From Acuticoccus sp. MNP-M23 (GTDB lineage: Bacteria; Pseudomonadota; Alphaproteobacteria; Rhizobiales; Amorphaceae): a DNA stretch of 64,000 nt. Below are positions 11,701 through 39,618 of the stretch, one piece after another. Below the pieces are notes generated by a model. That model saw only the letters and a program-made list of their open reading frames with translations. It ran no database searches and had not been told where the DNA came from. The number at the start of each line of letters is the position of its first letter. Positions within the stretch are counted from its first letter, which is position 1. The stretch is taken from positions 3,774,501-3,838,500 of the forward strand of contig NZ_CP133480.1 in assembly GCF_031195445.1 (NCBI RefSeq), in the 5' to 3' direction. A program made the translations under genes and the position numbers.

Positions 11701-13888
11701 CGTTCTCGTCGTCTTCATCATTGGCGAGAACGTCGAGAGTGATCGCCCCTCCGGCCCGCAGCGTGACGCTGTCAGCTTTGGCGATCGGCGCCTCGTTGTA
11801 GACCAACGTCACGACGCCTGGGGTGTCGGAGTCGCCGATGTGATAGCTGAACTCCGTCGGATACTCGTCAACGCCGTTGGCGATGTCCCACTCATCAAGC
11901 GGCGACCAGTCGTACTCGAACGGGTCGAGCAGCAGCGTCCCGTCAGCCCGCAGCGTCACGTCGCCGATGCCGGAGACGTAGACGGTGTCCCCGGACTCGA
12001 CCGCCTAGCCGTTGATCTTGCTCACGGTGAGGTCGATCTCGAGGTCGGTCTCGTTGTCGTTCGCAAGCACGTCGATGATGGTGCCGTCGGAGTACGTGTC
12101 GCTCTGGCGCGCCTGGACGGTGTCATCGACCGGCACGGCGTTGCGCGAGACGGTCAGCGTGGCGAAATCGGCGACGAACCCATCGTCCACGGCGTAGGTG
12201 TAGGTGGCGCTGCCGACGAAATCGTCGGAAGCGGTGAAGGTGTAGCTGCCGTCGGCATCGAGGACGAGCGTGCCGTTGTCGTCGGTGATCGTGCCAGTGC
12301 CATCCACCAGCGTGTCGGCGTCGACGAGGGTGGCGGCGAGGGCGTCGTCGACGTCGCTCTCCTGATCCGTGTCGTTGGTCAGGACGTCACCCGTGACCGA
12401 CGACGTCGTCAGGGTCATGACCTTGGTGTCGTCGGTCCCGACCGGAGCGTAGTTCGTGATCAGCGGCAGAATGTTCGCGACCTTGCCCTCGACGATCTTG
12501 TCGCCGTTGTAGGAAAGCACGAACCACGCATCACCGTCGTTGTTCTCCCGGGCGCTGAAGTCCGGCTCGGATGCGACGATAATGATCCGGTCGATGCCAT
12601 CGAAGGTGATGGTATGATCCGGGCCCGAGGATGGATCGTAGGCAGCCGGGTCGAAGTCCGGATTCCGACGGGCGAGGATCATGTCCCCGCCGGGCGATGT
12701 CTCGGTGTAGGCCCAGACGCTCTCATCCCCGGCCTGCTCCAGGATCAACCGGTCGGTCTTTCCCGCATTTCCGTGGAGGGTCGCATGACTGCCCGCCTCG
12801 AACGAATAGTATTCATCCATGAAGAGGAAAATATCGCTGCGGGCGCCGCCATAGGCCGTGTCAGAGCCGCCGCCGAGGTAGATCAGATCCTGGTCGTCCT
12901 GTCCGTCGGCAAAATCATCTCCCGCTCCGAGGTAGATCCGATCGCTGAAATCTCCGCCTTTGATCGAGTCGTCGCCGTCGCCACCGAAGATCGTGTCGTG
13001 GCCGGCGCCCCCGTCGATCTCGTCGTCGCCCGAGCCGCCGTCGATGGAATCGCGGCCGCCTTCGCCCCAGACGGTGTCGTTGCCACCATTGCCGATCAGC
13101 GTGTCGCCGCCTTCGTCGCCTTCGACCTTGTCGTCGTCGTTCCCGGCGTCGATGTAATCGTTGCCGTCGCCGCCGGAAATGCTGTCTTTACCTTCATTTC
13201 CCTCGATAACGTCGCGGCCGCTTCCGCCGCTGATGGTGTCGTCGCCGCGGTTGCCGAAGATTGTATCCTCGCCGTCGCCGCCAGAAATGCTGTCTTTACC
13301 ATTGTAGTAGTTGTGGCTGTTCGCGTCGCCGACGATGTAGTCGTCTCCCGCCTCACCGAAGATGGTGTCGTTGCCATCGCCGCCGATGAGGGTGTCGCCG
13401 CCTTCGTCGCCTTCCAGCAAGTCCTGGTCGAGACCGCCGTCGAGGGAATCGTTGCCGTCGCCGCCGTAGAGTTTGTCGCTGCCGGCGCGGCCGTTGAGCG
13501 TGTCGGCGGCGCCCTGCCCGTAAAGAGTGTCGTGACCCACGCCGCCATCCAGCGTGTCGTTGCCCTCGCCGCCCTCCAGCCGGTCGTTGTCGTCACCACC
13601 CTCAAGCGAATCGTCGTCGCCCTGGCCCAGCAGCGTGTCGTCGCCGGCACCGCCGATCAGCGTGTCGGTGCTCTTGCCGCCCTTGAGAAAGTCCTTGCCT
13701 TCTTCGCCGTCGAGGTAGTCGCTGCCGTTTTCGCCGTCGAGCGTGTCGTTGCCCGTGCCGCCGTAGATGGTGTCCTTGCCGCCGCCACCCTCGATATCGT
13801 CGTCACCGCCCCCGGCATCGATCCAATGGTCGGCGCCGCCGTAGGATTTGTTGTTTCCGCCGTCATTCAGATACTTGGGATCGGCCAC
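8762..13888 (-). pseudogene. Giant RTX/cadherin-type repeat protein with in-frame amber codon
   Basis: The start is GTG 13888 with AAAGG upstream. Residues about 10-330 are glycine-rich calcium-binding RTX nonapeptides (GGxGxDxLx, for example GGTGNDTLDGENGSD). Next come VCBS/cadherin-like modules with repeated NDTD and GDGTFDYDP motifs (about residues 480-1280). The C-terminus is a run of about 45-residue modules with DDGT and YTDGV. An in-frame TAG at 12005-12007 splits it after VSKING; AVESGDTVYVSGIGDVTLRA continues in the same frame, and related repeats suggest Gln (CAG) was lost. The full product would be about 1708 aa, probably secreted by a type I system and used in adhesion or biofilm. 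No type I transporter is in the window. The N-terminal position of the RTX block is unusual. Confidence 0.75.
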
Positions 13889-14205
13889 TGAAACGCCTTT
13901 CTACGATTGGATACTGACGCGTGCGGACCGGGAAATGCCCTGCGGTCGCAAGGCCGCTAAAACCAATTGAGCCACATGAGGCAAAGGGCCCCCGCTTAGG
14001 ACGGAGGCGAGGATCCATCTACCGAATAGCCAATGTGAAGCCTGGGATCATGGTCCCAGCGTCTCAATTCCGCGGCGCTCATCGCCAAAGTTCATCCAGG
14101 CGAGTAATCATTGCGAGAACGCGCACAATTCATGCCAAAAATCTGTGGGTGATCTGCTACAGTCGCGTTCTGCCGATCAAATCTTCTGAACGGGATACAG
14201 AAATT
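13889..14205. other. Intergenic region upstream of the RTX gene
   Basis: No protein-coding signal is convincing here. The minus strand around 13940-13985 has a tRNA-like box (TGGCTCAATTGG) but no acceptor or T-arm pairing. The segment presumably carries the promoter of the RTX gene; I see no clear operator. Confidence 0.4.
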
Positions 14206-15282
14206 CTACTCGGATAGCTCGTTTTCCGCGCGCTTGCTGGTGATGGACGGGTGGCTGAGCCAGTCGCCAAGATTGGTTGCGACCCTAGAGTCAACCGAAG
14301 GCGCGGGCAGCGGCTGGTCAAGCCGTTCGCCGACGACTTCGACGGGCGTCACCCCGAACGATGAACGGAACGCCCGCCGGAAGTTGGCCGCATCATGGAA
14401 GCCCCAGCGCTCGGCCACATCGCGGACCACGCCGCGCTCCTTGTTCGAGCGGGTCAGCTCCTGGAAGCACCGGGTCAGGCGCCGCTGTCGGATGTAGCGT
14501 TCGATCCCTCCCGAATCGGCGAACATGCGATAAAGGCTCGCCCGCGAGATGGCGAAGCGTGCGCATAAGGCATCGACCGAGAATGCCCCCGTGGACAGCT
14601 CTTCGTCGACCGAGGACTGGATCGCGTGTCGGCGGGCGCGGATAACGGCTGCGCTGACGGCGCGTGGTCTTCCCTCGAGGATCAGCGCTCGGACGAGCTC
14701 GGCAACGTCCATGGCCATCTGCGGACCTTCCTGCACCGTGGCGAACGGAAGGCGCGAAGCAAGAGCCGTGAGTGCAGTACCCATGATGCGCCCGGCGGGT
14801 GTTTCCGGGCTCAACAGATAGTTTGCGCGATGGATCGCTGGATCGTATCCAATCATCTCGTGAGGCATAAACAGCGCGTTGTACCTGAAGTCGGCGTAGA
14901 TGTTGTGAAAGCCCACGTCCCGGCTTTCCAACGAGATCTGTCCCGGCGTCAGCGAGTGCCGCGCGCCGCCGAACGTGCCGACGCTGGAGCCGGACACCGC
15001 GAAGCGCAGAAACAGACACCCGCTCTGGATGGCGTCGCGCCGCGGGTCGTAGCGCAGCCGGACGCCGCTGAGCCGGCTCCACCCGGCCGTCATTCCGGCG
15101 AGCTGCCAGGCGTGGCCGTGGGCAGCAAAGTCCCGCGAGCCGCCGATGAAGTCCGTTCCGTAAAATGCGCCATAAAAGTCGCGAAAGGCGTCCCGCTGAT
15201 CTTCGATCGGCAACGTCGCATCGTTGATTGGAATGCCGGGCAGCGGCACACAATCGGTACGCGGTCCGGCGGTTTCGATCAC
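14206..15282 (-). CDS. AraC-family transcriptional regulator
   Basis: The start is GTG 15282, six bases after an excellent GGAGGAG; longer frames upstream lack this. The 358-residue protein has an N-terminal AraC_binding_2-like sensor domain (about 60-200). The C-terminal AraC HTH pair (about 225-330) shows FAISRASLYRMFADSGG and VAERWGFHDAANFRRAFRSS, the normal two-helix signature. It would bind DNA and activate or repress nearby genes on sensing a small molecule. It lies 317 bases upstream of the RTX gene in the same direction and next to a dead peptide-type ABC ATPase; its target is not evident. Confidence 0.85.
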   Translation of the reverse strand: MIETAGPRTDCVPLPGIPINDATLPIEDQRDAFRDFYGAFYGTDFIGGSRDFAAHGHAWQLAGMTAGWSRLSGVRLRYDPRRDAIQSGCLFLRFAVSGSSVGTFGGARHSLTPGQISLESRDVGFHNIYADFRYNALFMPHEMIGYDPAIHRANYLLSPETPAGRIMGTALTALASRLPFATVQEGPQMAMDVAELVRALILEGRPRAVSAAVIRARRHAIQSSVDEELSTGAFSVDALCARFAISRASLYRMFADSGGIERYIRQRRLTRCFQELTRSNKERGVVRDVAERWGFHDAANFRRAFRSSFGVTPVEVVGERLDQPLPAPSVDSRVATNLGDWLSHPSITSKRAENELSE

Positions 15283-15425
15283 GTTGGCTCCTCCATACCG
15301 AGCGGGCTGATGCGCGCCGCTGAGCGACCGCCGCCGACCGGCATCAGCGTAGGCACGCCCGCCTCGCACTCGGCAAATGCGCGCGGATAGCGAGGCGCAA
15401 ACGGGCACCCGGGCAGCGGCGGGAA

Positions 15426-16110
15426 CTAGCTTTGCACAGACTCACCGAGCGGCAATAGGCGGTTCCGCTGCCGCGGATCGAGCGGAGGGACCGCCAGAAG
15501 CAGCGCTCGCGGGTAGGGATGCGCCGGGCGGGCGACGACGTGCGCAACCGGCACGCTCTGCACGATGCGGCCGAGGCACATGACGATGACGTCGTCTGCC
15601 ATGCTCTCCACCGTCGCCAGGCTACGCGAAATTCGGAGGTAGCCGAGGCCACGGCTCTCCTGAAGCTAACGCAGCGGATTGACAGTCTTTGCCAGGAAGG
15701 AGACGTCGAGTGCCGCCGTCGGCTCGCCGAGGAGGGGAGTGTCCGGCTCGCACCTCAGCGCCATCGCGATCATCACGCACTGGCGCTGTCCGCCGGAGAA
15801 CTCAAGAAGTACCCGCACAAGCTCGGGACGGCTGACCGCAGCAAGTCTGGCCGCCGCCATCGCCCGCGCAGCAGAGCGGCTGGCATCGCGCTGTCGGCGG
15901 ATGATATCGGAAAGCTGACCTCCCACCGTGGAGAACGGGCCGAGCGACCTGGTGGCGTCCTGAAAGATCATCGCGCATCGCCGCCCGCGAACCTCGCGCA
16001 GCGGCTCCGGTATGGCACCGACGATGTCGATGCCGCCTATCGCCACGCGGCCGGACACCCGCGCGCCAGCCGGCGCGCGGGCCGTGGAACCGTGGCCGAG
16101 CCCTCACCTA
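15426..16110 (-). pseudogene. Oligopeptide-type ABC transporter ATPase, degenerate
   Basis: Recognisable pieces are the Q-loop (AMIFQDATRSLGP), the signature LEFSGGQRQ, and the D-loop/end region PHPYPRALLLAVPPLDPRQR? typical of Dpp/Opp ATPases (here ARPAHPYPRALLLAVPPL). Walker A is eroded to GHGST without Lys. Walker B reads TPLLGEPTAALD, with Gly replacing the Asp. An in-frame TAG at 15666-15668 interrupts VNPLR*LQESRGLGYL. No start codon or partner permease remains. It is a relic of a dipeptide/oligopeptide importer. Confidence 0.75.
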
Positions 16111-16178
16111 AAGGCGCGGAGTGAAGCGCGTTGTGGGTGTACGGCTCGCCGGGCTGGGTTCGGTCACGACGCGTCGCT

Positions 16179-16910
16179 TCAACCTGCGATCAGCAAAGCG
16201 GCGTAGCCGGCGGCGGCGAGGGCGAATGGCCAGAACCGGCTCTGCCTTTCTTCCGGCAGCTCTTCTTTCAAGACGTTCAGCACCACGCCGCCGGCAAGGA
16301 ACGCGAACAGCAATCCTGTCGCCAGTTCCGGGATCTTCACGACCAGCGCCAAAACCCATCCGACGCAGACTGCAGCCACGAGGATCCAGCGTCCGGGTGT
16401 ATCGTAACGTTCCTTGTGGTGCTGACGCAGCCCGAAATCAACGGTCACAAAGTGCATCGCCATTGCGAAGAAGTAAATCATCAGGGACCAGAGGCCCGTT
16501 TCTTCCCGATGAACCAGCAGGTAGCCGATCAGAAAATTGTAGACGGCGAATGAGCCGAGGTGAACTCGGAACAGCCCAGCCGCGACTACGTCCTGTGCGC
16601 CGCCGTGCAGTGACTTGCCTCGGGATGTCTTGGCCAATCGCTCCAGACCGTAGAAGCTCGCGAGCCCGACGAGAGCGACCAGGAAGACCCAGCTCTCCGC
16701 CACCTCAGGGGCTACTCCCAGTCCTTGCGCAAAGGTGCTCTGGTGCGCGCTGAGTTCGGGAAGGACGTGCAGGAAAACGTAGGCCACGGCAATTCCGCCA
16801 GCTGCAGATAGCCATCGACTGCGGGGCGCCACGTCGAGGAAGCGCAGGCGGCCAATCAACAGGTGGATCAGACAGAAGCCGATCGTGAGGAGCGCGGTTA
16901 GGTAGATCAT
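16179..16910 (-). CDS. Polytopic membrane protein, ZIP-like
   Basis: 243 residues with about seven hydrophobic segments, starting MIYLTALLTIGFCLIHLLIG. A central loop contains AMHFVTVDFGLRQHHKERYD, and the C-terminus has GGVVLNVLKEELPEER. The overall pattern, with a His-rich loop and the KEELPEER motif, recalls ZIP metal transporters, but the metal-binding helix signature is not clearly present, so transport of zinc or iron is only a suggestion. On the minus strand GGAAC is followed after 16 bases by GGTT just before the start, a one-mismatch sigma-EcfG-like promoter that would give an almost leaderless mRNA. It follows the kinase gene after an 87-base gap. Confidence 0.55.
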   Translation of the reverse strand: MIYLTALLTIGFCLIHLLIGRLRFLDVAPRSRWLSAAGGIAVAYVFLHVLPELSAHQSTFAQGLGVAPEVAESWVFLVALVGLASFYGLERLAKTSRGKSLHGGAQDVVAAGLFRVHLGSFAVYNFLIGYLLVHREETGLWSLMIYFFAMAMHFVTVDFGLRQHHKERYDTPGRWILVAAVCVGWVLALVVKIPELATGLLFAFLAGGVVLNVLKEELPEERQSRFWPFALAAAGYAALLIAG

Positions 16911-16997
16911 CGCAATATAACCGACCTGCCGGAGCTGCGTTCCCGCCCTGCAAGAGGGGATTGCAGCTGGCCCGGCTAATGAACGGGTGTGGGGGCC

Positions 16998-18041
16998 TTA
17001 TTTCTGCAGTTTGAAACTTAGGCGGCAACGGACGCCGGTTGGTTCGTAGGACAATTCTGTCTCTCCATTCGGCATAGCCGACTTGATGACTGTCGTACCG
17101 AAGCCTTCACGCTCCGGAGCGATGACTTGAGGGCCGCCCATCTCAGCCCACAGCAACATGACCTTGCCGCCTGCATCGTGCGACCAAGTAACCGCGACGC
17201 GGCCCTGCGGCGTCGAGAGAGCGCCATACTTGCGCGCATTGGACGCCAGTTCGTGCATGACGAGCCCAAGCCCCGTCGCCTGATCGCTTGCCAGACTGAT
17301 GTCGGGTCCCTCCAACGTCAGCACGCCGCGCTCGTCCGGCGTCAGCAGGCCGCCGGCTGTCGCCTCGATAACGAGCTTCAGCGGAGCCGCTTGCCAGTTG
17401 CCCTCGCGCAGCGCGTCGTAAGCTCGGGAAAGCGCGTTCATCCGCGCCCGGAAAGCGGTCCGGAATTCTGCGGAGTTGCCCGCAGCCGCCTCCGTCAGGA
17501 TCCCGAGCGACGAAACCATGGAGAAGACGTTCTTCACCCGGTGACTCAGTTCCTCGAAAAGAACGTTGGCATGGGTCTCGGCGCGGCTGTGTTTCTCGAT
17601 CAGATCGGCAAGGTCGTACTGCCGGCGTCGCGCGACCAGCGCACTTTGGACAGCCGTCGCAATCTCCAGGATGCTGCTGGGCCGGATGAGAACCGTGATC
17701 GGCTGCCCGTCTCGGGCGTCCAGGAGCCGGCGGGCCCAGCGCTCCGCCTGAATTTCCGATTCCCCCAGCAGGACGACAGGCGGGGCGGACCAAAGCGGCT
17801 CCCGCGTCAACAGATCGATCAGCGCATCGAGCGTCGCGGGCGTCATCGCCTCGGCGGTCAGAAGGAAGGCCCCAACCTCTAGCCTGTGCGCGCTCCGTAG
17901 CTGGCAGTCGAGTGAAGCGCGCCGAGCAACGTCTATCGATCGCTCCAGCAGGATCTGCTCGAGGACGGATGCATCGCGCGCGAAAGGGGCAAGAACGACG
18001 AGGCGTTCCGAGCGCACGAGGTCGCCCTGATCCACCGTCAC
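16998..18041 (-). CDS. HWE-family sensor histidine kinase
   Basis: 347 residues. The N-terminal 125 or so resemble a degenerate receiver domain (VLAPFARDASVLEQILLE, no clear phospho-Asp site). The C-terminal kinase has the H-box EELSHRVKNVFSMVSSLG (phospho-His in SHRVKN) and the N-box HELASNARKYGALS, with an ATP-binding lid GFGTTVIKSAM, all typical of HWE/HisKA_2 kinases in alphaproteobacteria. It starts at GTG 18041, overlapping the KaiC-like stop by four bases (GTGA), so the two are translationally coupled. No transmembrane segment is seen, so it is cytoplasmic. The likely partner is the KaiC-like ATPase and possibly the receiver at 23993. Confidence 0.85.
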   Translation of the reverse strand: MTVDQGDLVRSERLVVLAPFARDASVLEQILLERSIDVARRASLDCQLRSAHRLEVGAFLLTAEAMTPATLDALIDLLTREPLWSAPPVVLLGESEIQAERWARRLLDARDGQPITVLIRPSSILEIATAVQSALVARRRQYDLADLIEKHSRAETHANVLFEELSHRVKNVFSMVSSLGILTEAAAGNSAEFRTAFRARMNALSRAYDALREGNWQAAPLKLVIEATAGGLLTPDERGVLTLEGPDISLASDQATGLGLVMHELASNARKYGALSTPQGRVAVTWSHDAGGKVMLLWAEMGGPQVIAPEREGFGTTVIKSAMPNGETELSYEPTGVRCRLSFKLQK

Positions 18042-29022: not shown

Positions 29023-29409
29023 AATCGGTAACATCGCGGCGTCATCCACACATGCGACGGGCCACTCGCGATGTGCCGCGCTCGCGAGCCTCCATTCTGC
29101 TACTCCGAAACTGCCGCCTCGGTGACAGGCCGGGCACGTTGCATCCACGTCGCCCCTTGGCTTCACGGCCTCTGTTAAAGCGTCCCCGCAGCAGCTCTAA
29201 GATACCTGGCGAGGCCGCTCTGAAATCCGTTCTGAGACTCAACTCTGCAGACCGGCCAGGCCAGGGCACTCGCTTTGTAGTAGCCGACGAGGCGGAGAAT
29301 GTTCGCTCCGGGACCCTCTCCCTCCGCCACTCAGCAAGTTCGAACCGTTCTCTGCTCCTCAATCGGGCGTCGAAAACGCCACGGCGCGCGCGCTGTGGCG
29401 CGAAAGCTG
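29023..29409. other. Intergenic region between AGE epimerase and recombinase remnant
   Basis: No convincing coding sequence, hairpin terminator or repeat is visible. The GC content is typical of the surroundings. It lies between an operon end and mobile DNA and is probably scar sequence. Confidence 0.35.
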
Positions 29410-29650
29410 ATGACTGCACGATCAGCCCTTGAGCCAATCATCGTGGATGTTCAGCGCTCGGGTCGAACCAGTCTGCGCGCCATCGCTGAAGAGCTGAACG
29501 AATGCGGCATCGTCACACGACGGGGAGGGCGGTGGTACGTTTCGAACGTCCGGAACCTTCTCGGGAGGCTGGGTCGAAAGCAGGCGGGCGCTGGACGATA
29601 AAACAGACAAGGCTGATGTCTTTCGTGGAGGCGATAGTCACGATCTTTTC
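29410..29650 (+). pseudogene. Decayed second copy of the recombinase 3' end and DUF7220-like start
   Basis: RSGRTSLRAIAEELNECGIV and RRGGRWYVSNVRNLLGRLG match the C-terminus of the serine recombinase at 6463-7158 almost residue for residue. The following DNA matches the start of the small membrane gene (KQTRLMSFVEAIV), but its ATG has become ATA and the frame then runs into unrelated sequence. The catalytic half of the recombinase is absent. Corresponding DNA is at about 7000-7210. Confidence 0.8.
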
Positions 29651-29719
29651 TTCGTGTCCACGAAACCGGCAGCAGCTCAGGCCGCAGCCGGCGGCCCGCC
29701 TGCGTCGAGCCTGATCGAC

Positions 29720-29959
29720 TCATCCGCGTTGAGGGTGCACCGATGCGCGGATGCGCAACAGGCTCTGCGGCGTGATCTGCTTGCCTAACCGCTTTCCGAT
29801 AGAGGCGGTGAGGTCGGGAAGTTTCCAGCTCGATACGCCGTCGACCTTGGCATCGGGACCCCGGAGGATCCGCTCGGCGAGAAGCGCCAGCGCACCCTCG
29901 GTGAGGGCAGGCCCGCGCCACGGTCCGGGACGGTCGAGGAGACCCGCCGACCTGCGCAA
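29720..29959 (-). pseudogene. IS630-type transposase N-terminal scrap
   Basis: The motif GPDAKVDGVSSWKLPDLTAS followed by IGKRLGKQITPQSLLRI matches the second helix-turn-helix of IS630/Tc1-like transposases. The DDE catalytic part and both terminal inverted repeats are missing. The fragment lies just after the 3' end of the cyanophycin operon. Confidence 0.5.
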
Positions 29960-30016
29960 GAGACTCCGGGCCCGGATGCCAATCCTCTACCGAGTTAGCG
30001 GGAAGGCGCGCTGATA

Positions 30017-32029
30017 TCAGACGCCGCGTGGGATCGTCCGGTTCCAGCTCCGCTCGTAGACGATTTCGTCGGCCTGTTTCGCCTCTAGATGGGCCTCGAT
30101 GATGAAATCGGTGGGACTGCAGGTGAGGCGCGTCGTGGTGCGCGAGGACGTGACCCAGCCGTCGCGCTCCAGCCCTGCGTGCCACTGCGCAAAAGCGGTT
30201 GCGGAGGACGGGTCGCTCGGGTCTATCGTGTAGCGCTCCACCGCGTTCTTGCGGATCGTTATGTCGTCTTCCACCAGGCGGTATGTGCCGGCGCCGTCGC
30301 CGAGTTCAAGGGTGACGCTGTTCTCGTCAGCCTCGCGCACGACGCGCCAGTAAAGGTTTGCCGGTTCAATGGTTTCGCGGGTCGGTCCCTTGCCGGTTTC
30401 AGGTTCGCCGAACGTGACGGCATCGATGGCAAGAGCCTCGCGGCGCACGGGGAGTGTGAGACGCGAACCTGACGGATCAACGGTAATGGTCACCTTCTCG
30501 GGCGAAGGCCAGATCATCGGGAAATACGACGTGGAGACCGCGAGGCCGATGCGGTGACCGGCGCGGAAGCGCTGCGCGACGGGCTTCAGGGGAACGCGCA
30601 CGGTCACACTTTTGCCCGGCACGAGGGGCTTCGGGTCGGCGTGGCCATCGCGATGCGTGAGGTTGAGGACGCCGAACGTGACACGGGTCGCGGCCCCATC
30701 CGGGGCGATGTCGTCGATATGCACTGCGACCTGCGCCATCTCCCGGTCCGCTGAAAGCCGCAGCGTGACTTCAGGCTCGCCGGCAATGTCGACCGGCTGG
30801 GCCAGGGGTTCGGTGAAGAATGTAAGGCTGCCGCCATACTCCGCGCGCTGGTCGGTCGGCTGATCGCCGGGGTGGGCGTAGGAGCACCACTTGCCGCCGG
30901 CCATGCCGACGTCGAGTGGCGATGAGACGGTGAGCAGCGCGCCGCCCCCTTCGCCGCCAAGCGTGCCGCCCGACCCCAGCGCGTAGTGCGTGGGCACGAT
31001 GTTGCTCGACGGCCAGACGGGCTCGGCGATCCATTTGCCTTCGCGCGACGGGTAGTTCGCGCGCGGCGGCGCATGGTCCTGCTGGAAGAGCCGCAGCATA
31101 GGTTCGTCCATGATGCCGGCCGGCTCAAGCTTCAGCCATTCGTCCCACCAGCGGAGCGTCTCCTGCAGGAAGCCGATGGCGGGGCCGGGCGAGCCAACGT
31201 GCGGCCGCTTGTGCGACCACGGGCCGACGAGGCCCTTTCGCGGTCCTTCGAGGTGCTCCATCAATCGCAGGACCGAGCGGCAGTAACCGTCCGCCCAGCC
31301 GCTCACCGCGTAGACCGGGATCTTTATCGCCGAATAGTCCTCACAGACCGAGCCGTGCTGCCAGAAGGCGTCGCGGGTCTGGTGGTTCAGCCAGTTCTCC
31401 AGCCACAGGCCGCTTTTTTCCAGCCGCTCCAGCCACAGTTCGCGCCAGGCTTCGCCGCGCCAGCGCGGATCGGGCGGCAGGGCGTTGCGCGCGAACATCT
31501 GCGAGGCCCAGGAGAAATTGTCGATGAGGAGGCAGCCGCCCATGTAGTGCACGTCGTCGGCATAGCGGTCGTCGGTGGAGCAGATGGTGACAATCGCCTT
31601 CAGTGCCGGCGGCTGGAGGGCTGCGATCTGGAGGCCGTTGAACCCGCCCCACGAGATGCCGATCATGCCGATATTGCCGTCGCACCACGCCTGATCGGCA
31701 ATCCATGCGATGGCGTCGACACCGTCCTGCAGCTCTTGCGGCAGGTATTCGTCCAGCATCAGGCCTTCCGAATCGCCCGCCCCGCGAAGGTCGAGCCGGA
31801 CGTAGGCGTAGCCGTGGCCGGCATAGTACCGGCCGGTCTCCTCATCCTCGGGCGCGCAAAGGTCGTTCTTGCGGTAGGGGATGTATTCGAGGATCGCCGG
31901 AACCGGTTTTGCTTCGGCGTCTTGCGGCATGAAGATGCGGGCGGCAAGGCGGCAGCCGTCCGGCATCGGCACGTCGATGTGCTTTATCTCCCGAACCTTG
32001 TGGGGGAGATCCTCGGCGACGCGCATCAT
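30017..32029 (-). CDS. CocE/NonD-family serine hydrolase (X-Pro dipeptidyl-peptidase-like)
   Basis: 670 residues from ATG 32029, which overlaps the upstream stop (ATGATG); a start 99 bases earlier would intrude into that gene. An N-terminal alpha/beta-hydrolase domain has the nucleophile Ser126 in GISWGGF, a likely Asp in GWADG and His in GPWSHKRPH. The C-terminal half is the jelly-roll of the X-Pro_dipept_C type (from about 360), which begins near SNIVPTHYALGSGG. No signal peptide. Family members hydrolyse esters or amides, including cocaine esterase and acyl-peptide substrates. Its position as last gene of the cyanophycin operon suggests an ester or amide substrate linked to cyanophycin or its dipeptides; this is inference. 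Confidence 0.85.
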   Translation of the reverse strand: MMRVAEDLPHKVREIKHIDVPMPDGCRLAARIFMPQDAEAKPVPAILEYIPYRKNDLCAPEDEETGRYYAGHGYAYVRLDLRGAGDSEGLMLDEYLPQELQDGVDAIAWIADQAWCDGNIGMIGISWGGFNGLQIAALQPPALKAIVTICSTDDRYADDVHYMGGCLLIDNFSWASQMFARNALPPDPRWRGEAWRELWLERLEKSGLWLENWLNHQTRDAFWQHGSVCEDYSAIKIPVYAVSGWADGYCRSVLRLMEHLEGPRKGLVGPWSHKRPHVGSPGPAIGFLQETLRWWDEWLKLEPAGIMDEPMLRLFQQDHAPPRANYPSREGKWIAEPVWPSSNIVPTHYALGSGGTLGGEGGGALLTVSSPLDVGMAGGKWCSYAHPGDQPTDQRAEYGGSLTFFTEPLAQPVDIAGEPEVTLRLSADREMAQVAVHIDDIAPDGAATRVTFGVLNLTHRDGHADPKPLVPGKSVTVRVPLKPVAQRFRAGHRIGLAVSTSYFPMIWPSPEKVTITVDPSGSRLTLPVRREALAIDAVTFGEPETGKGPTRETIEPANLYWRVVREADENSVTLELGDGAGTYRLVEDDITIRKNAVERYTIDPSDPSSATAFAQWHAGLERDGWVTSSRTTTRLTCSPTDFIIEAHLEAKQADEIVYERSWNRTIPRGV

Positions 32030-33324
32030 TCGTCGATGTTGGTGAACTCGAAGTTCAGCCCCTTCATCACGCGCTCGTAGTTCCACAGAAGCGAGGCCTG
32101 GGTGTTGGCGCCCATCCAGATGCAGCACACGGCGAAGCTGTAGGAATCCTGCTCGGGAAGCTCGGTCAGTCGCATGCCTTCCTTCATTTGCACGGCGACG
32201 GTGGTGCCGGGGACCTTGTCCTGCGCGGCGGCGACTTCCTCCGCAGAGGGTACGCTCGATGCGACCGCGTTGTTGAAGAACACGCGGTAGAAGAACTCTG
32301 CCGCGACGTTGTAACCGCCCTCACGCTTCGGCATCTGCGGCGCGCGGCCGAGGCCGATGTCGACGGCAACCTGCTGATGGCTCGTTCCGTCGACTTTCTC
32401 GAACATGTCGCAGTGGGACTGGGCAAGGCGGGTGTTGATCTCAAGGAGCCAGATCTTGTCCTGCACCTCGTCCCAGAAGAACTCGATGTTGAAGGCGGAG
32501 TCGTCGTAGCCGGTGTGCTCCATGATCTTGATGGCGATCTCGGCCATCCTGTCCTGCACCCGCTGCGGCAGCTTCGACGGATACATGTAGTAGAAGAACG
32601 AAAGAACCTGCGGATAACGGATGGAATCCACCACGCCGTAGGGGACGACCTTGCCGTCGTAGACGTAGCCCTCCAGCGTGCACTGGCGGCCGCCGATGAT
32701 CTGCTCGGCCATGCAATACTGGCCGGCGACCTTGCGAATGTCGGCCGGCATTTCCGCGTGGTCGAGCACGTAGTCGAACGGTTCGGACACGGCACCGACG
32801 CCGGCACGCAGCTTTTCGATCGCGAAGTCGAAGTCTTCCGGGTTGTCGACACGGAAGCCAAGCCGCGAGCCCGACGACTTGATCGGCTTGACGAAGAAGG
32901 GGAACGACAGCGCCGACTGGCCGATCTTGGAGAGCGCATCGTCGTCGAACGGGTCAAACGCGGTGAAGGCGGGGATATGCTCGGGGATCACTTCGCGCTG
33001 GACCGTGCGGCTCCAGAACTTGTGCTCGCACTTCAACAGGCTTTCCAGCGACGTCGCCCGCGTGCCGAACTTCTTGGCGAGCAGCGGCAGCATCGTCGAC
33101 ACCGGAATGTCCATGTAGCCGATGATGGCGTCGACCGGAACGTCGGCCGCCCTGATCTGCCGCTCGGCAATCTCGAGCAGGGAGGGGATGTTGTAGTCCT
33201 CCACCTCGTAGACGATGGCCGGATCGATGACGCCGTGGAACACCACGTCCTCGACACCCTTGAGCCGCTTCAGGCGCTCGTGATTGAGATCGTTCATGCC
33301 GATCACGAAGACGTTCTTCGTCAT
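32026..33324 (-). CDS. ATP-grasp ligase of unknown substrate
   Basis: 432 residues. The N-terminal Rossmann-like lobe starts MTKNVFVIGMNDLNHERLKR. The ATP-grasp core follows with FFVKPIKSSGSRLGF (nucleotide-binding Lys region) and the metal-binding DKIWLLEINTRLAQSH near residue 300. ATP-grasp enzymes join a carboxylate to an amine or thiol through an acyl-phosphate. The start is preceded by GGGAGG six bases away and lies 42 bases after the cyanophycin synthetase stop, and its stop overlaps the hydrolase start. The operon suggests an amino acid or dipeptide substrate, for example modifying or recycling beta-Asp-Arg, but nothing in the sequence names it. Confidence 0.75.
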   Translation of the reverse strand: MTKNVFVIGMNDLNHERLKRLKGVEDVVFHGVIDPAIVYEVEDYNIPSLLEIAERQIRAADVPVDAIIGYMDIPVSTMLPLLAKKFGTRATSLESLLKCEHKFWSRTVQREVIPEHIPAFTAFDPFDDDALSKIGQSALSFPFFVKPIKSSGSRLGFRVDNPEDFDFAIEKLRAGVGAVSEPFDYVLDHAEMPADIRKVAGQYCMAEQIIGGRQCTLEGYVYDGKVVPYGVVDSIRYPQVLSFFYYMYPSKLPQRVQDRMAEIAIKIMEHTGYDDSAFNIEFFWDEVQDKIWLLEINTRLAQSHCDMFEKVDGTSHQQVAVDIGLGRAPQMPKREGGYNVAAEFFYRVFFNNAVASSVPSAEEVAAAQDKVPGTTVAVQMKEGMRLTELPEQDSYSFAVCCIWMGANTQASLLWNYERVMKGLNFEFTNIDE

Positions 33325-33366
33325 CGCATCCTCCCGTTCCGTTTTATTGGGCGCAATGCGCCGCGT

Positions 33367-35988
33367 TTATTGTGCCGCAACGGCGGCCTTCTCACGGAAA
33401 CTGCGCCCCTTGAGCCGCTGGATCGTGCCGTCGACGTCGTCCACCAGCAGGAGGAGCAGATCGCCCTCCTTCGCTTCGTCCATCGCACGGCCGATGGCGT
33501 CGTGCTCGGCAAGCTCCAGCGTGACGCGGCAGGAGCCTGCCTCCTCGGCGCCGGCCCTGAGGAGACCGGCCGCTTCGCCGACCTCGCGCTGGCGCGCATG
33601 CGTCTCGCAGATGAACAGGATGTCGCTCATCTCGCCGAGCTGACGGCCCAGCGCCGAAAGGTCCTCGTCCCGCCGGTTGCCCGGCGCGCTCGCAACGCCG
33701 ATCACCCGTTTTCCCTGAAGACCACGCACCAGCGGCGCCAGCGCGGCCAGCGCAGGCACGTTGTGGCCGTAGTCGATCAGGCAGCGAACGCCATCAGCCT
33801 CGATAAGGTTCGATCGGCCGGGAAGTTGTGTCGGCGTCGGGTGGAAGGTGGTGAGGCCCATCCGTATGTCGCCCAGCGAGAGGCCGTGCGCGTGCGCCGC
33901 GGCGGCCGCCGCCATCGCGTTCTGCACGTTGAAGACGGCGTGGCCCTCGAAAGCGATCGGCACGTCGTTGACCTCGACGATCTCAGCTTCCACCTCGCCC
34001 TGCCGCAGCACGATCCTGCCGCCGCGCACCGTGACCACTACGCCGTGCCCGGCAATGTGGCCCGCAAGATCCGGGTTGTCCGGGTTCATGGTGAAGTAGG
34101 CGATCTTGCCACGTGCCCAGTAAGTGCCCTGGTCGAACACGCGCGGGTCGTCGGCGTTGAGGACCGCGGTGCCGCTCTCCTTCACCGCGTAGGTGACGAC
34201 GGTCTTGCAGCGTGCGAGCTCGTCGAGCGTGTGGACGTCGTAGTCGCCGAGGTGGTCGCTCGCGATGTTGGTGAGGACGCCGACATCGCACTCGTCGAAG
34301 CCGAGGCCGCGGCGCATGATGCCCCCGCGCGCCACTTCCAGAACCGCATGGTCGACGGACGGCTCCTGAAGCACGATCTGCGCCGATTGCGGGCCGGAAT
34401 AGTCGCCGCGCATGACGACGTGGTTGTCAATCTCGATCGCGCCCGTCGTCGCCATGCCCACGTGGCGGCCGGCATAGCGCAGGATGTGCGCGATAAGGCG
34501 CGTGGTGGTGGTCTTGCCGTTGGTGCCGGTGATCGCGGTGATAGGGATGCGCGCGTCGCCGGGGTCCGGGAACAGCATGTCGACGACGGCCTCACCAACC
34601 GGACGGCCCTTGCCGTGGGTCGGCGACAGGTGCATCCGGAAGCCGGGGCCTGCGTTCACCTCCACCACGCCGGCGGACTGCTGGTCCAGGGGACGGGTCA
34701 ACGTTTCGGCCAGAAGGTCGATGCCGATGATGTCGAGCCCGATCAGCCGGCCGATGCGTTCGGCTGCGAAGCGCACGTCGGGGTGGACATCGTCGGTAAG
34801 GTCGGTGGCGGTGCCGCCTGTCGAAAGGTTCGCGGTCGACTTCAGCAGGAAGATCTCGCCCTGGGGCAGGACGCTTTCCAGCGTGAGCCCGGCCTGCGCA
34901 ATCAGCCGCTCGGTCTGCTGATCGACGAAGATCTGCGTGAGCAGGTTTTCGTGGCCGACGCCGCGGCGCGGATCCTTGTTCTCGCGGTCGATCAGCTGCT
35001 GCAGAGTGGACGTGCCATCGCCCTCCACGTGGGCGGGCCTGCGTCGTGCCGCGGCGACAAGCTTGCCGTCCACCACCAAGAGGCGGTGATCCTCGCCCTT
35101 GATGTACTTCTCCACGACGACACTTGCATTGCGCGCGTAAGCGGCGTCGAAGCCTTCCTTCAGCTCGTTCTCGTCGGTGATGTTGGTGGTCACGCCGCGT
35201 CCGTGGTTGCCCACCAGCGGCTTGGTGACGACGGGATAGCCGATGCTTTGCGCCGCGGCGACGGCCTCTTCGAAGGTGTAGGTGATCGAGCCCCAGGGCA
35301 CCGGGATGCCGGCTTCGCCGAGGATCTTCTTTGTCCAGTCCTTGTCGTCGGCGATGGAGGAGCCGATCAGGCTGGTCTTTGCCGTAACGGTCGCCTGGAA
35401 GCGCTGCTGGCGGTTGCCGTGGCCGAGCTGGATATAGCTCGCGTCCTCGGTCAGCCGCACGTAGGGGATGCCCCGCTTGCGGGCGGCCTGCACTATGGAA
35501 TTGGTCGACGGCCCCAGCATGTTGGCGTCGCGCACTTCCTTCAGGCGTTCGATCACCGGCCCCAGATCGGCCGTCTGCCCGTCGTAGAGGCGCTCGACGA
35601 TGGCGACCGCCTCGACCCCGGCGGCAATCCCGCACGCTTCGTCCCGGTAGCGGTAGACCACGTTGTAGACGCAAGGCTCGTAGCTATCGACCGTCTTGCC
35701 GTAGCCGACCGTGAAGCCGATCAGATTCTGCAGCTCAATCGCGACGTGTTCCACAACGTGGCCGGCATAGGTGCCGGCCTCGACGCGCTGGAGAAAGCCG
35801 CCGGGCACGCCGACAGAGCAGCGATGGTCGTAAAGCGACGGCAGGACGGCCTTCAGGTTGTCCAGAAAGCCCGGCACTTCGTTGCTCGGCCGGTGGTTGA
35901 GGTCGCCAATGTCGAGCCGCATGAGGATTGCGGGGTAGCCACTGTAGTAGTTTGGTCCACGCAAAGCCCGATGGCTGACAATTTTCAC
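33367..35988 (-). CDS. cphA: Cyanophycin synthetase
   Basis: 873 residues, the usual size. Start GTG 35988 with AAGGA upstream. The N-terminal domain (1-160) carries MKIVSHRALRGPNYYSGYPA and GGFLQRVEAGTYAGH. A central ATP-grasp domain (about 200-470) contains VVTKPLVGNHGRGVT and ends GVVEVNAGPGFRMHL. The C-terminal Mur ligase-like domain has the P-loop ITGTNGKTTTTRLIAH (about 490). CphA extends multi-L-arginyl-poly-L-aspartate: the ATP-grasp site adds Asp to the backbone and the Mur-like site adds Arg to its side chain. All key motifs are present, so it is probably functional. It follows cyanophycinase by nine bases and precedes the ATP-grasp ligase. Confidence 0.95.
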   Translation of the reverse strand: MKIVSHRALRGPNYYSGYPAILMRLDIGDLNHRPSNEVPGFLDNLKAVLPSLYDHRCSVGVPGGFLQRVEAGTYAGHVVEHVAIELQNLIGFTVGYGKTVDSYEPCVYNVVYRYRDEACGIAAGVEAVAIVERLYDGQTADLGPVIERLKEVRDANMLGPSTNSIVQAARKRGIPYVRLTEDASYIQLGHGNRQQRFQATVTAKTSLIGSSIADDKDWTKKILGEAGIPVPWGSITYTFEEAVAAAQSIGYPVVTKPLVGNHGRGVTTNITDENELKEGFDAAYARNASVVVEKYIKGEDHRLLVVDGKLVAAARRRPAHVEGDGTSTLQQLIDRENKDPRRGVGHENLLTQIFVDQQTERLIAQAGLTLESVLPQGEIFLLKSTANLSTGGTATDLTDDVHPDVRFAAERIGRLIGLDIIGIDLLAETLTRPLDQQSAGVVEVNAGPGFRMHLSPTHGKGRPVGEAVVDMLFPDPGDARIPITAITGTNGKTTTTRLIAHILRYAGRHVGMATTGAIEIDNHVVMRGDYSGPQSAQIVLQEPSVDHAVLEVARGGIMRRGLGFDECDVGVLTNIASDHLGDYDVHTLDELARCKTVVTYAVKESGTAVLNADDPRVFDQGTYWARGKIAYFTMNPDNPDLAGHIAGHGVVVTVRGGRIVLRQGEVEAEIVEVNDVPIAFEGHAVFNVQNAMAAAAAAHAHGLSLGDIRMGLTTFHPTPTQLPGRSNLIEADGVRCLIDYGHNVPALAALAPLVRGLQGKRVIGVASAPGNRRDEDLSALGRQLGEMSDILFICETHARQREVGEAAGLLRAGAEEAGSCRVTLELAEHDAIGRAMDEAKEGDLLLLLVDDVDGTIQRLKGRSFREKAAVAAQ

Positions 35989-35997
35989 GCGCGTTCC

Positions 35998-36888
35998 TTA
36001 GTTATTCTCAAGATCGGATGGGGAGAGGAACCGGCGCTTGCGCACATCGTAGCCAAATCCACTGGTGAGAGCGTGCATAATAACGTGCTCGACCGCAACC
36101 GGCTCGCCGTCGCTCAATTCAAAGACATTCGATACGCGCAGTTCAGAGCTGTCGACGATGATGACGTGGCCGTTGCCGATCGCTTCGAGGATCGGCCCTT
36201 CGTGGATGATGACCCCCGCATCCTCGCCGATACCGATGCCGAGATATTCCGGGTTCGTCGTCCCCACCTCCATCAACCGGGTGAAGCGGCCCCTTTCCAG
36301 GAAATGGCTGTCGATGATGACGCCGTGCACGAACGCCAGGCCGGAACTCATCTTGACCGCGCCCTTGCGCAGGGCGTCGGCGGCGTGGCCGTTGTAGATC
36401 ATGGTCGCCGACATGGCGGCGGCGCCGGCGCTGGTGCCGGCGATCACCGCGCCCTGTTCGCGCCGTTGGCGGATTGCGGCGAGAAGCGGCGAGCCGCCGA
36501 GAATGTGGGTGAGGCGGAGCTGGTCGCCGCCCGTGAGGAAAATCACGTTGCACCGCTCGATGGCTTCGATCAGCTCGGGCCTTCCGGCATCGGCGCGAGT
36601 GCGAACGTCGAGATTGTGGACAGCCTTCGCGCCCAGTCGGCCGAAGGTTTCGTCATAGGTGGCGAACGTCTCGTCGGGATAGCCGCTCGCCGTGGCGATG
36701 ACGCCGACCTCGCACGCCGACGGGTCCGGCGCGAGGCCGAGAACGCGCCGCAGGATGACCGCTTCGGATGTCTTGTCCTCGGCGCCGCCGATGGCAACCA
36801 GCACGCCGCGGGACTTGTTGTCGGTAAGATCGTTGAACAAGGCGACCGTGGCCTTCCAAGTAAGGCGCTGAGGGTGCGCCGGAATCAT
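35998..36888 (-). CDS. cphB: Cyanophycinase
   Basis: 296 residues, S51-like serine peptidase fold. The nucleophile Ser153 is in the elbow IAGTSAGAAAM; FLTGGDQ supplies the oxyanion region and DSHFLERGR the conserved His/Glu-Arg element. It cleaves cyanophycin to beta-Asp-Arg dipeptides in the cytoplasm. The N-terminus is slightly ragged, so a later start near residue 18 is possible. It is the first gene of the four-gene operon; the cphA start is nine bases downstream. No further Asp-Arg hydrolase (isoaspartyl dipeptidase) lies nearby, which makes the two downstream enzymes candidates for dipeptide processing. Confidence 0.92.
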   Translation of the reverse strand: MIPAHPQRLTWKATVALFNDLTDNKSRGVLVAIGGAEDKTSEAVILRRVLGLAPDPSACEVGVIATASGYPDETFATYDETFGRLGAKAVHNLDVRTRADAGRPELIEAIERCNVIFLTGGDQLRLTHILGGSPLLAAIRQRREQGAVIAGTSAGAAAMSATMIYNGHAADALRKGAVKMSSGLAFVHGVIIDSHFLERGRFTRLMEVGTTNPEYLGIGIGEDAGVIIHEGPILEAIGNGHVIIVDSSELRVSNVFELSDGEPVAVEHVIMHALTSGFGYDVRKRRFLSPSDLENN

Positions 36889-36984
36889 CTAAGCCAGCCG
36901 GCGGACGCGATTGCAACCGCTCTCACGCTCGACCGGACCCGCGCGCGCACGTCCTACACCACTCGATGGCGCGCGACCACCGTG

Positions 36985-37838
36985 AGGCAGTCGCCGAGCT
37001 TGACGGAACCCGGAAGAATGCTTTTCGAGCGGACGCAGGAGGGCCGGCCGGACGCGCAGGAGGGCGCTGTAACGCTGTTCACGATGCACGCTGCCAGAGG
37101 ACTCAAGCGGCCGGTGGTTGTCCCGGTAAACACGCTGGGTGCGCCGCGGACGGAATCGCGCGCTTTCGTCGACGAAGCCACCGGAGCGCTCCTTCGCAAG
37201 GTGCTCGGCGCCGAGCCGACGGGGTACGCTGCGCGCTGGGAGGCGGAGAAGGAGGAGATCCGGCTGGAGCGCCAGCAGCTGTGGTATGTGGCGGCGACGC
37301 GGGCGCTGCAGACGCTGCTGTTGCCCCGTCCTGACGCGGAGCCCGGCCGGTCAGCCTGGCGCGCTCCGGTCGACCTCGCGCTCGGCGACCTGCCGCCGTT
37401 CGACCGTCCGCCCGTCGCAGCGCGAGCGGCCGCCGGCATACGTCCGGGCGCGCAGTCGGCGGAGACATTCCGCGCCGAGGCGGAAGGCATAGCCGGCCGT
37501 CAGCGGCGGCTGTTCCGGGTGGTTCCGAGCCGGCACGAGGGCGGCGCGCCGGAGCCGGCGTCACCGATCATTTCCGCCGACGAGGATGCGGCCGCGACGA
37601 TGGCGGTGGACGGTTGGACGCAGGTCCGTGAATCGGTCGGGCGCGGCGCTGCGTTGCGCGGACGTCGCGAGCGTGGCCTCGCAATCCACAAGCTCATCGA
37701 GGAGGTGCTGACCGGCGAGACCTTGGCGGCCTGCGAGCCGTTGGAGACGCGGGCAGGTGTGCTCGCGATGTTGCTGGGGCCGACGCCGAGGCGGAAGCCG
37801 CCTACTACGGCCAGCTTGAGGCCATGCCGCTCGCCGCG
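36985..37838 (+). pseudogene. UvrD/AddA-type helicase C-terminal fragment
   Basis: The open frame carries GAVTLFTMHAARGLKRPVVV, a helicase motif V-like segment, and RLERQQLWYVAATRALQTLL, motif VI of UvrD-like helicases, followed by a RecB-nuclease-like region beginning GLAIHKLIEEVLTGET. The N-terminal helicase core with the Walker A site is absent, and the 3' end runs into tail-gene sequence. It is an orphan fragment facing the cyanophycin operon. No start codon is convincing. Confidence 0.65.
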
Positions 37839-37869
37839 TAGGATTCAAGCCAAACGGTTTCCGGAAAAC

Positions 37870-38531
37870 GCGGGGCGGTTCAATCGAGAGCGCGCCAGGT
37901 ATCTGGGAAATCGTCCAGGCAGGCGCGGCGGAACTGATCGGCCCAGGCCGGTATCGCCTGACCAGACTCCTGCGGGGCCAGCGCGGCACTGAAGGAGCCA
38001 TGGGCAATCCGGCGCCCGCCGGCGTGCGGGTCGTGGTGCTGGGCGACAGCATTGCAACGCTGCCAATCGCCGAGGCCGATCTCCGGCATCCCGTGGAACT
38101 GGCGCATCGGTCCCGCAAGCCGCCCGGTCAGCGACGAGACCAATGTGGCGCAGACCTTCACGCCTGAAGGCGTCGGGTTGCGGCCGTTCTCGGTCGCCCA
38201 TGTCGAGCAGCCGTCGCGCAAGGCGCGCAGTCCCGGCGATCTGACGATCCGCTGGACACGCCGGTCCCGGGCACTCGTGGCCGACAGCTGGGGCGGGCTC
38301 GAGGTGCCGCTGGGCGAGGAGCTCGAAGCCTACGAGGTCGAGATCCTCGACGGCACCACAGTGAAGCGGGTGCTGAGCACCGCCACCACCAGCGCGGTCT
38401 ACACCGCCGCAGACCAGACCGCCGATTGGGGCGCGCCACTCGCCCCCGGCGAGAGCCTCATCGTCCGCATCTTCCAGCTCTCCGCGCTGGTCGGGCGGGG
38501 CGCGCCCGAGACCGTCACGCTCTTGTTCTGA
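37870..38531 (+). pseudogene. GTA/phage tail-tip (gp15-like) C-terminal remnant, frameshifted
   Basis: IWEIVQAGAAELIGPGRYRL and LTRLLRGQRGTEGAMGNPAP are highly characteristic of the C-terminal end of the Rhodobacter gene transfer agent baseplate/host-specificity protein. After PIAEADL the frame is broken by one extra C at 38083/38084, and the protein resumes in the next frame with GIPWNWRIGPASRPVSDET through to VTLLF at 38531. The large N-terminal part is missing. It is followed closely by DUF2793, as in intact prophages. Confidence 0.8.
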
Positions 38532-38541
38532 AGGCAATCCC

Positions 38542-39618
38542 ATGTCCGACGCCACGACCCATCTTCTGCTGCCCTGGATCCTCGCGGCGCAGGCCCAGAA
38601 GCATGTCACCCACAACGAGGCGCTGCGGATCCTCGACGGTCTGGTGCAGTTTTCCGTCCTCGACCGCGACCTGACCATGCCGCCCGGCAGCCCCGTCGAT
38701 AGCGACCGCTATATCGTGGCCAGCGGCGGGACCCGTGACTGGACGGGCTGGGACCTGAACGTAGCGATTTGGACGAGCTGGACCCGGCTGCGCCTGCCGC
38801 CTCGGACCGGGTGGCGGGCTTGGGTCGAGGATGAGGGACTGCTGCTGGTCTACGACGGCGCAGGCTGGATCGGGACCACGCCCGCGGCGCTGCAGAACGT
38901 GGCGCTGCTGGGACTCGGCACGACGGCGGATGCGTCGAACCCGTTCTCGGCCAAGCTGAACGCCGCGCTCTGGACGGCGAAGCCCCTCGGCGAGGGCGGC
39001 ACCGGAGATCTGTTCTACACCATGAACAAGGAGGCGGCGGGCGACGATCTCGGGCTGACGCTGCAGACCAACTTTGTCACCAAGGCGCTGGTCGGGCTGT
39101 TCGGCTCGGACCGCTTCCGCCTCGCGGTCTCCGCCGACAGCAGCACCTTCTTCGACGGGCTCAGCGTCGACAACGCCACCGGCATCGTCGACCAGCCCCG
39201 GCTGCCCCGCTTCAAGGCATGGGCCAACTACGACAACTACGTCAGCGTCGGGACCTGGACGAAGATCGGCCTCAACAGCACCGACTACAACGATAAGGGG
39301 GCGTTCGACGCCGCGAACAACCACTTCGTGGCGCCGGTGGATGGCACTTACCTCTTCGGAACGACGCTGCTCGACAAGATCAACGCCAGCGCCACTGCGA
39401 GCATGCGCGGGCGATTCGTTCTGAACGGCTCGACCGAAATCCGCGGCTCCCTTGGCGAAATCTCCGCCACCCACGTCTCGCTCGCCACCGCGATCTGGCT
39501 GCAGACCATGGTGCCGCTGACTGCTGGCGATGCCGTCGAGCTGCAGGGGTATTTCCGGGTCGCGGACGGGTATTTCGTCGCCGACCAGACCTCCTTCTGG
39601 GGCTGCAAGGTCGGCTGA
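38542..39618 (+). CDS. DUF2793 phage tail-associated protein
   Basis: 358 residues. The conserved DUF2793 signature AAQAQKHVTHNEALRILDG appears at the start, then repeated Trp/Gly-rich beta modules. The C-terminal 120 or so residues look like a C1q-type jelly-roll (HFVAPVDGTYLFGTTLLDKI). In alphaproteobacterial prophages this protein lies next to the tail tip and is thought to be a tail fibre or receptor-binding component. The frame is intact although the preceding gene is broken. Confidence 0.85.
   Translation: MSDATTHLLLPWILAAQAQKHVTHNEALRILDGLVQFSVLDRDLTMPPGSPVDSDRYIVASGGTRDWTGWDLNVAIWTSWTRLRLPPRTGWRAWVEDEGLLLVYDGAGWIGTTPAALQNVALLGLGTTADASNPFSAKLNAALWTAKPLGEGGTGDLFYTMNKEAAGDDLGLTLQTNFVTKALVGLFGSDRFRLAVSADSSTFFDGLSVDNATGIVDQPRLPRFKAWANYDNYVSVGTWTKIGLNSTDYNDKGAFDAANNHFVAPVDGTYLFGTTLLDKINASATASMRGRFVLNGSTEIRGSLGEISATHVSLATAIWLQTMVPLTAGDAVELQGYFRVADGYFVADQTSFWGCKVG

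Follow-up and report, generated by a model that had tools for sequence, protein, structure and literature searches.

Cyanophycin is made by CphA and cut by CphB, roles that are established for these protein families, and free aspartate (Asp) and arginine (Arg) are generally regarded as the final products of its breakdown. According to the available sections of a recent survey (Sharon & Schmeing 2023; PMC10206079), isoaspartyl dipeptidase genes cluster with cphA1 in 7.5% of cases, and a cyanophycin dipeptide hydrolase (Sharon et al. 2023, PNAS, cited here through PMC10206079) is annotated as an M14 metallopeptidase or AstE/AspA enzyme. In one sentence, the same survey mentions a cocaine-esterase-like gene in a cphA cluster (record NZ_SJEY01000003) as a possible missing isoaspartyl dipeptidase. 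Here we analyzed an operon of Acuticoccus sp. MNP-M23 in which cphB and cphA are followed by genes for an ATP-grasp ligase and a CocE/NonD-type serine hydrolase (hereafter CocE); the window is the whole stretch of 64,000 nucleotides at positions 3,774,501 to 3,838,500 of NZ_CP133480.1. We found that this four-gene arrangement is conserved, that the ATP-grasp/CocE pair is an accessory module of cyanophycin clusters, and that it also occurs in genomes without cphA. A preliminary description of the operon, made from the sequence alone, had supposed that an isoaspartyl dipeptidase normally follows the two cyanophycin enzymes, which the figure of 7.5% contradicts.

A conserved four-gene operon

As first described, all four genes are on the minus strand, in the order cphB, cphA, ATP-grasp and CocE-type hydrolase, with gaps of 9 and 42 bases and then a 4-base overlap. 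CphB (35998..36888; 296 residues) scored 231.5 bits with the cyanophycinase equivalog model TIGR02069 (cut-off 126.6) and contained PF03575 (Peptidase_S51), and CphA (33367..35988; 873 residues, GTG start) scored 1123.8 bits with the cyanophycin synthetase 1 (CphA1) equivalog model TIGR02068 (cut-off 850), a full-length match spanning residues 2-860. The third gene (32026..33324) encodes an L-amino-acid-ligase-like protein of 432 residues with general Pfam domains above cut-off (ATP-grasp_4 or PF13535, 38.2 bits; CPSase_L_D2; Dala_Dala_lig_C), and it reached no NCBIfam cut-off. The last gene (30017..32029) encodes a CocE/NonD (peptidase S15-type) hydrolase with a TIGR00976 score of 251.2 bits (cut-off 66.3); its 670 residues are counted from the ATG inside the stop/start overlap at 32026..32029. 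No isoaspartyl dipeptidase gene was present within the four-gene operon. Scanning of positions 29600-37300 gave no promoter-like site (1.0 in shuffled sequences) and two terminator-like sites (4.6 in shuffled sequences), both on the opposite strand.

A scan of genome contigs for the ATP-grasp gene, using a four-sequence alignment as query, matched at least 595 stretches, and a relative is encoded in at least 585 of them. We kept the 80 best loci, and counts made on them describe close relatives only; several are contig ends, where the absence of a neighboring gene is not firm. We detected cphA in 59 and cphB in 58 of the 80 loci. CocE, counted when at least 90% of its length was aligned, was downstream of the ATP-grasp gene and on the same strand in 72 of them, with a median gap of 66.5 bases (the CocE of L022 is cut by a contig end). 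Where cphA was present, it was collinear in 44 loci, divergent in 14 and convergent in one. The collinear order cphB-cphA-ATP-grasp(-CocE) belonged mostly to Rhodobacterales, and the divergent order to Halomonadaceae. The closest full operon, L116, has all four genes and an ATP-grasp protein 72% identical to that of the window. When "cphA adjacent" was mapped as a label onto a FastTree phylogeny of 93 ATP-grasp proteins, it needed 5 changes, which may be gains or losses (4 of them forced by starred branches), versus a mean of 26.9 changes after shuffling. The four-gene arrangement is therefore conserved and not a matter of chance. The preliminary description had named a lack of co-occurrence with cphA as a reason to abandon its proposal for the two additional enzymes; because both additional genes recur beside cphA and cphB in many genera and in two main orders, this reason falls away. 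It is still conceivable that the genes are mere neighbors with no functional connection, as they were probably gained together and may merely have remained side by side since, but two main architectures with cphA and the close same-strand spacing of ATP-grasp and CocE genes in many genera make this very improbable. Unusually wide spaces between the two genes were seen in L036 (1035 bases) and in one other locus (698 bases). In addition, a metagenome-assembled genome (MAG) of Halomonadaceae (L079, positions 9992-17642) has two ATP-grasp genes, the second of which (42% identity) is beside a short CocE fragment.

The pair in the absence of cyanophycin genes

Twenty-one draft genomes that had the ATP-grasp gene and no cphA in the same locus were searched with TIGR02068 (L018, L070 and L061 were left out of this search). 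Ten had cphA above cut-off elsewhere, including G413, where it was split over two frames. The other 11 had none above cut-off; among them is G398, a MAG of 2.4 Mb whose contig is short. All five cphA-bearing genomes included in the same search (G416-G420) were positive. Pairs without cphA were also found in the order and class samples, among distant relatives with 38-48% identity: L013, L117 and L118 have ATP-grasp and CocE genes with the same 4-base overlap as in the window, L014 has them in divergent orientation, and no cphA was seen in the stretches read; two of the four belong to the 11 cphA-negative genomes. In L119 (9440-18209), oligopeptide-type ATP-binding cassette (ABC) transporter genes are located between a convergent ATP-grasp gene and CocE, also with no cphA in the stretch, and this is perhaps an import-linked version of the pair. 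No CocE was seen at L120-L126 (27-43% identity; class sample, some on short contigs) or at L015, a contig-end locus. Likewise, no CocE was found beside the wider plasmid homologues L010 (Sphingobium), L097 (Paraburkholderia fungorum) and L098, which have other neighbors. These three are distant ATP-grasp relatives (29-34%), and stress, envelope, metal or efflux genes surround L097 and L010.

In a class sample of 376 genomes, that of the host included, the ATP-grasp gene was found in 12 (E <= 1e-30), cphA above cut-off in 6 and both genes in 2. The contrast between 59 of the 80 best loci and 6 of these 376 genomes with cphA is not a fair test, because similarity to a cph-linked query had been the basis for selecting the 80. 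The wider ATP-grasp family is not tied to cphA, and the near subfamily mostly is. Rather than being confined to cphA genomes, as would be expected for an accessory enzyme specific to cyanophycin, the pair is found without cphA in 11 of 21 genomes and in the four distant loci; thus, it is not cyanophycin-specific, and a role in modifying cyanophycin only is unlikely. Since the pair also stands alone, it is a separate ligase/hydrolase module that joined cyanophycin clusters. Of the earlier proposal that the two additional enzymes act on cyanophycin or its dipeptides, the association with cph genes held up and the specificity for cyanophycin did not.

Predicted ligase and hydrolase

The AlphaFold model of the ATP-grasp protein, based on 33 sequences, had a predicted local distance difference test (pLDDT) score of 92.0. 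Its best Foldseek match was BacD (3vmm, E 9e-22), and L-amino-acid ligases occupied 6 of the top eleven rows with five entries (3vmm, 3wo1, 4wd3, 3wnz and 3vot); BacD, YwfE, RizA and BL00235 were all represented. A search with a sequence profile, which also included one plasmid homologue, matched 3vot at E 1e-4. Residues K146, E207, E281, E295, N297 and R299 were identical in 93 of 93 homologues and K149 in 92. The protein thus has an ATP-grasp fold with conserved nucleotide- and metal-binding-type residues, as an L-amino-acid ligase would.

One conceivable task for such a ligase is to make a primer for CphA to extend: its gene directly follows cphA in 44 of the 59 loci, and the minimal primer is itself a short peptide, (beta-Asp-Arg)-Asp, as given in the available part of PMC9262961. 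This role was rejected as hardly credible, because the Cx19HxxEH motif, which marks primer-independent CphA1, was present in all 61 CphA proteins examined (the window, L116 and the 59 loci). In the window, a motif search placed it at CphA residues 57-81 (35746..35820, minus strand). Presence of the motif is the common state, since 83% of CphA1s have it (PMC9262961).

The CocE model had a pLDDT score of 83.3. Its nearest fold was cocaine esterase (Foldseek E 1.5e-38), followed by alpha-amino acid ester hydrolases and S15 peptidases, and cocaine esterase mutants at Ser117 and Tyr44 were named among the structure matches. Y52, S126, D247 and H273, which are residues of the catalytic type, were identical in 79 of 79 homologues and aligned with cocaine esterase; together with the TIGR00976 score, this places the protein in the CocE/NonD family. 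An acidic segment was equally invariant, with D153, D154, R155, D158, D159 and H161 identical in all 79. According to the secondary structure of the model, an extra beta-rich region occupies approximately residues 551-667 at the C-terminus (30029..30379, minus strand), beyond PepX_C, whose best Pfam stretch stops at residue 522.

We also inspected six plasmid CocE records, hand-picked from 30 among 461 matching records. In five of them (H9, H10, H12, H18 and H37), CocE was in or beside an ABC-importer operon, and in H14 an ABC transporter was located approximately 3.6 kb from CocE; one of the importers beside plasmid CocE was annotated as oligopeptide/dipeptide. The acidic segment was readable in three of the six, being kept in L099 and L102 and changed at D158 in L101; L100, L103 and L104 were missed by the search pattern.

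CocE and the isoaspartyl dipeptidase

The host genome (5.16 Mb, 98.3% complete) had no IaaA (PF01112) and no AstE/AspA enzyme by family models, and its only IadA match was a sub-cut-off one of 24 bits. Because the known dipeptidase families were not found, another enzyme would be needed in this genome for full use of cyanophycin. CocE could be that enzyme, splitting beta-Asp-Arg to Asp and Arg, with the ATP-grasp gene as an accessory. In agreement with this idea, L116 had no IaaA or IadA within 19.5 kb, and such a gene was named as a candidate by Sharon & Schmeing in the passage cited above. However, when E. coli IaaA and IadA were searched for in the 80 loci (E <= 1e-15), 49 of the 53 loci with both cphA and CocE proved to carry a dipeptidase gene as well, either IaaA (35 loci) or IadA (14 loci). 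Only four lacked both, and two of these (L035 and L069) end near the place where the dipeptidase is expected. For comparison, IaaA was found in 2 of 6 loci with cphA and no CocE and in 1 of 19 with CocE and no cphA; the remaining two loci had neither cphA nor CocE, although one of them, L092, does have CocE in two frames.

The loci with both enzymes include the published record itself. NZ_SJEY01000003 (Roseovarius; L041) has the order cphB-cphA-ATP-grasp-CocE, and divergent from its cphB is an IaaA-type gene with 49% identity to E. coli IaaA (NF007589, 323 bits, below the equivalog cut-off of 567). Among the IadA cases, L076 passed the TIGR01975 cut-off. Roseivivax halodurans JCM 10272 (L050) has the same cluster with CocE and a dipeptidase; according to the available text of PMC10206079, purified IaaA from the cluster of R. 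halodurans (a match of species, not of accession) hydrolyzed all beta-Asp dipeptides of the set tested. CocE matched neither the IaaA nor the IadA family in domain lists. Since 49 of 53 loci carry both, CocE is mostly an addition to the dipeptidase and not a substitute for it, and its simple replacement of that enzyme is weakened as an explanation, together with the earlier suggestion that CocE recycles beta-Asp-Arg. The pair is also present in genomes without cphA, and a dipeptidase role would leave the ligase unexplained. We therefore consider this role rather doubtful as a general one; in the host genome, which lacks the known families, CocE stays a candidate dipeptidase.

Proposed function

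We propose that the operon joins two make-and-break pairs, CphA/CphB and ATP-grasp/CocE. The ATP-grasp enzyme would use ATP to activate a carboxylate and couple it to an amine. The resulting small peptide or amide would in turn be cleaved by CocE, the S15-type serine hydrolase. The substrate would be drawn from a pool shared with cyanophycin, namely Arg, Asp or the beta-Asp-Arg released by CphB, so that nitrogen from cyanophycin could be stored in a soluble peptide or regained from it. The tight pairing of ligase and hydrolase suggests a reversible store, and the pair's occurrence next to cyanophycin genes in two main architectures points to a common metabolite, most simply Arg, Asp or beta-Asp-Arg. 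A common pool would also account for the association with cyanophycin clusters, which the pair probably joined more than once. The Foldseek rows given above favor a ligase as the first enzyme, and the importer genes around CocE in five of the six plasmid records and in L119 favor a link of this hydrolase to peptides. We give a probability of roughly 0.45 to the reading in which a small peptide connected with this pool is synthesized by the ligase and broken down by CocE. A more specific version is unlikely, in which the ATP-grasp enzyme builds an undescribed soluble peptide from beta-Asp-Arg or free Arg, CocE is its dedicated hydrolase, and the product serves as a second nitrogen store that elsewhere operates without cyanophycin.

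Several observations weigh against a make-and-break pair on the cyanophycin pool. The Foldseek ligase matches have 13-16% identity to the ATP-grasp model, biotin carboxylases and, at rank 2, a phosphoribosylglycinamide synthetase have almost equal scores, and in the profile search ligase 3vot ranked below urea amidolyase, carbamoyl-phosphate synthase and biotin carboxylase. In 6 of the 59 loci (L020, L021, L023, L026, L040 and L061), cphA and ATP-grasp genes occur with no adjacent CocE, although the contigs of L020 and L023 end approximately 3 kb downstream. Within the class sample, the ATP-grasp gene was present in 2 of 6 cphA genomes, and cphA in 2 of 12 genomes with the ATP-grasp gene. No clear shared regulatory site emerged when sigma-54, NtrC and ArgR consensus patterns were compared with one mononucleotide shuffle each; the only slight sign concerned ArgR, with at most 4 mismatches in 5 of 43 sequences from upstream of collinear cphB versus 0 of 43 shuffled. 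Finally, a CocE tree obtained by a quick method did not mirror the ATP-grasp tree: the window-type CocE grouped with cph-linked rhodobacterial proteins, and CocE of Rhodovibrionaceae and Halomonadaceae formed a separate group. Because the trees disagree, the CocE partner may have been exchanged. In the same tree, the transporter-linked Roseivivax CocE (L099) fell within the group of cph-linked rhodobacterial and window proteins, a placement that may reflect an exchange of CocE between the cyanophycin cluster and transporter operons.

A different role for the pair, making and removing a compatible solute in salt-adapted bacteria, would explain the adjacency of cphA by a nitrogen economy common to both under salt stress. 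Many carriers have names that point to halophiles, and ectoine synthase was found in 23 of 24 chosen named carrier genomes (no Halomonadaceae among them) versus 3 of 49 chosen genomes without the gene, a contrast that is confounded because most of the named carriers are Rhodobacteraceae related to one another and were selected for their similarity to the query. On the other hand, neither the host genome nor that of the closest full-operon relative (G435) has ectoine synthase, and the order and class samples contain 7 carriers, counting these two, of which one has it. Support for an osmolyte role is thus mixed, and we regard it as distinctly unlikely.

The presence of a conserved ligase-hydrolase pair in these clusters, mostly alongside an IaaA/IadA-type dipeptidase, suggests that the cyanophycin pathway involves a further compound, and this co-occurrence takes support away from the published suggestion that CocE is the missing dipeptidase in the cited cluster. 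The gene set is small and amenable to in vitro tests. Should Arg or beta-Asp-Arg prove to be a substrate of the ligase, peptide synthesis would gain a new tool.

Host genome and flanking regions

Within a set of ten genomes of the family, cphA was found in the host genome alone, and the same was true for a clear ATP-grasp gene; five other family genomes gave weak ATP-grasp matches only (E 4.6e-4 to 9.2e-4). Because each gene occurs in 1 of the 10 genomes, the operon block was probably acquired as one piece by horizontal gain. Just downstream of the operon is a partial recombinase (PF07508, 100 residues; 29299-29601, plus strand). Directly upstream of cphB is an AddA-like fragment (36961-37989, plus strand), which matched positions 771-995 of 1138, in the later part of the alphaproteobacterial AddA helicase model TIGR02784, with 36.8 bits, far below cut-off. 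These two remnants on opposite sides of the operon may mark an insertion site. Farther away, positions 38542-39618 (plus strand) encode a DUF2793 protein; this family often accompanies phage or gene-transfer-agent genes.

Comparison with known systems

No description of the ATP-grasp/CocE pair was found in the open-licence literature searched, mostly at the level of listings and with the 2023 PNAS article outside its scope. Passages of PMC4431377 and PMC9427784 had no bearing on the pair. The term ATP-grasp has no occurrence in the main text of PMC10206079, and the pair without cphA is not described there by that name. The preliminary view of this system as undescribed therefore held for the ATP-grasp partner within the literature searched, and failed for CocE in a cphA cluster, which is in print (PMC10206079).

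The closest solved folds to the ATP-grasp model are the L-amino-acid ligases BacD/YwfE, RizA and BL00235, and RizA is reported to make arginyl dipeptides (PMC9321006). The operon's protein differs from these ligases in that it is 13-16% identical to them and is paired with a hydrolase. CocE shares its fold and the Tyr/Ser/Asp/His set with CocE/NonD proteins, alpha-amino acid ester hydrolases and S15 Xaa-Pro peptidases. Unlike cocaine esterase, it has 670 residues with an extra C-terminal beta region, and its TDDRYADD segment aligns with SADLYRAP in that enzyme. Cyanophycin dipeptide hydrolase is likewise encoded next to cphA and cyanophycinase genes, as reported in the available sections of PMC10206079, but CocE differs from it by annotated family, and the host genome has no AstE/AspA match. 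With the clusters of cphA1, cyanophycinase and isoaspartyl dipeptidase genes described in the same source, the operon has the cphB-cphA core in common.

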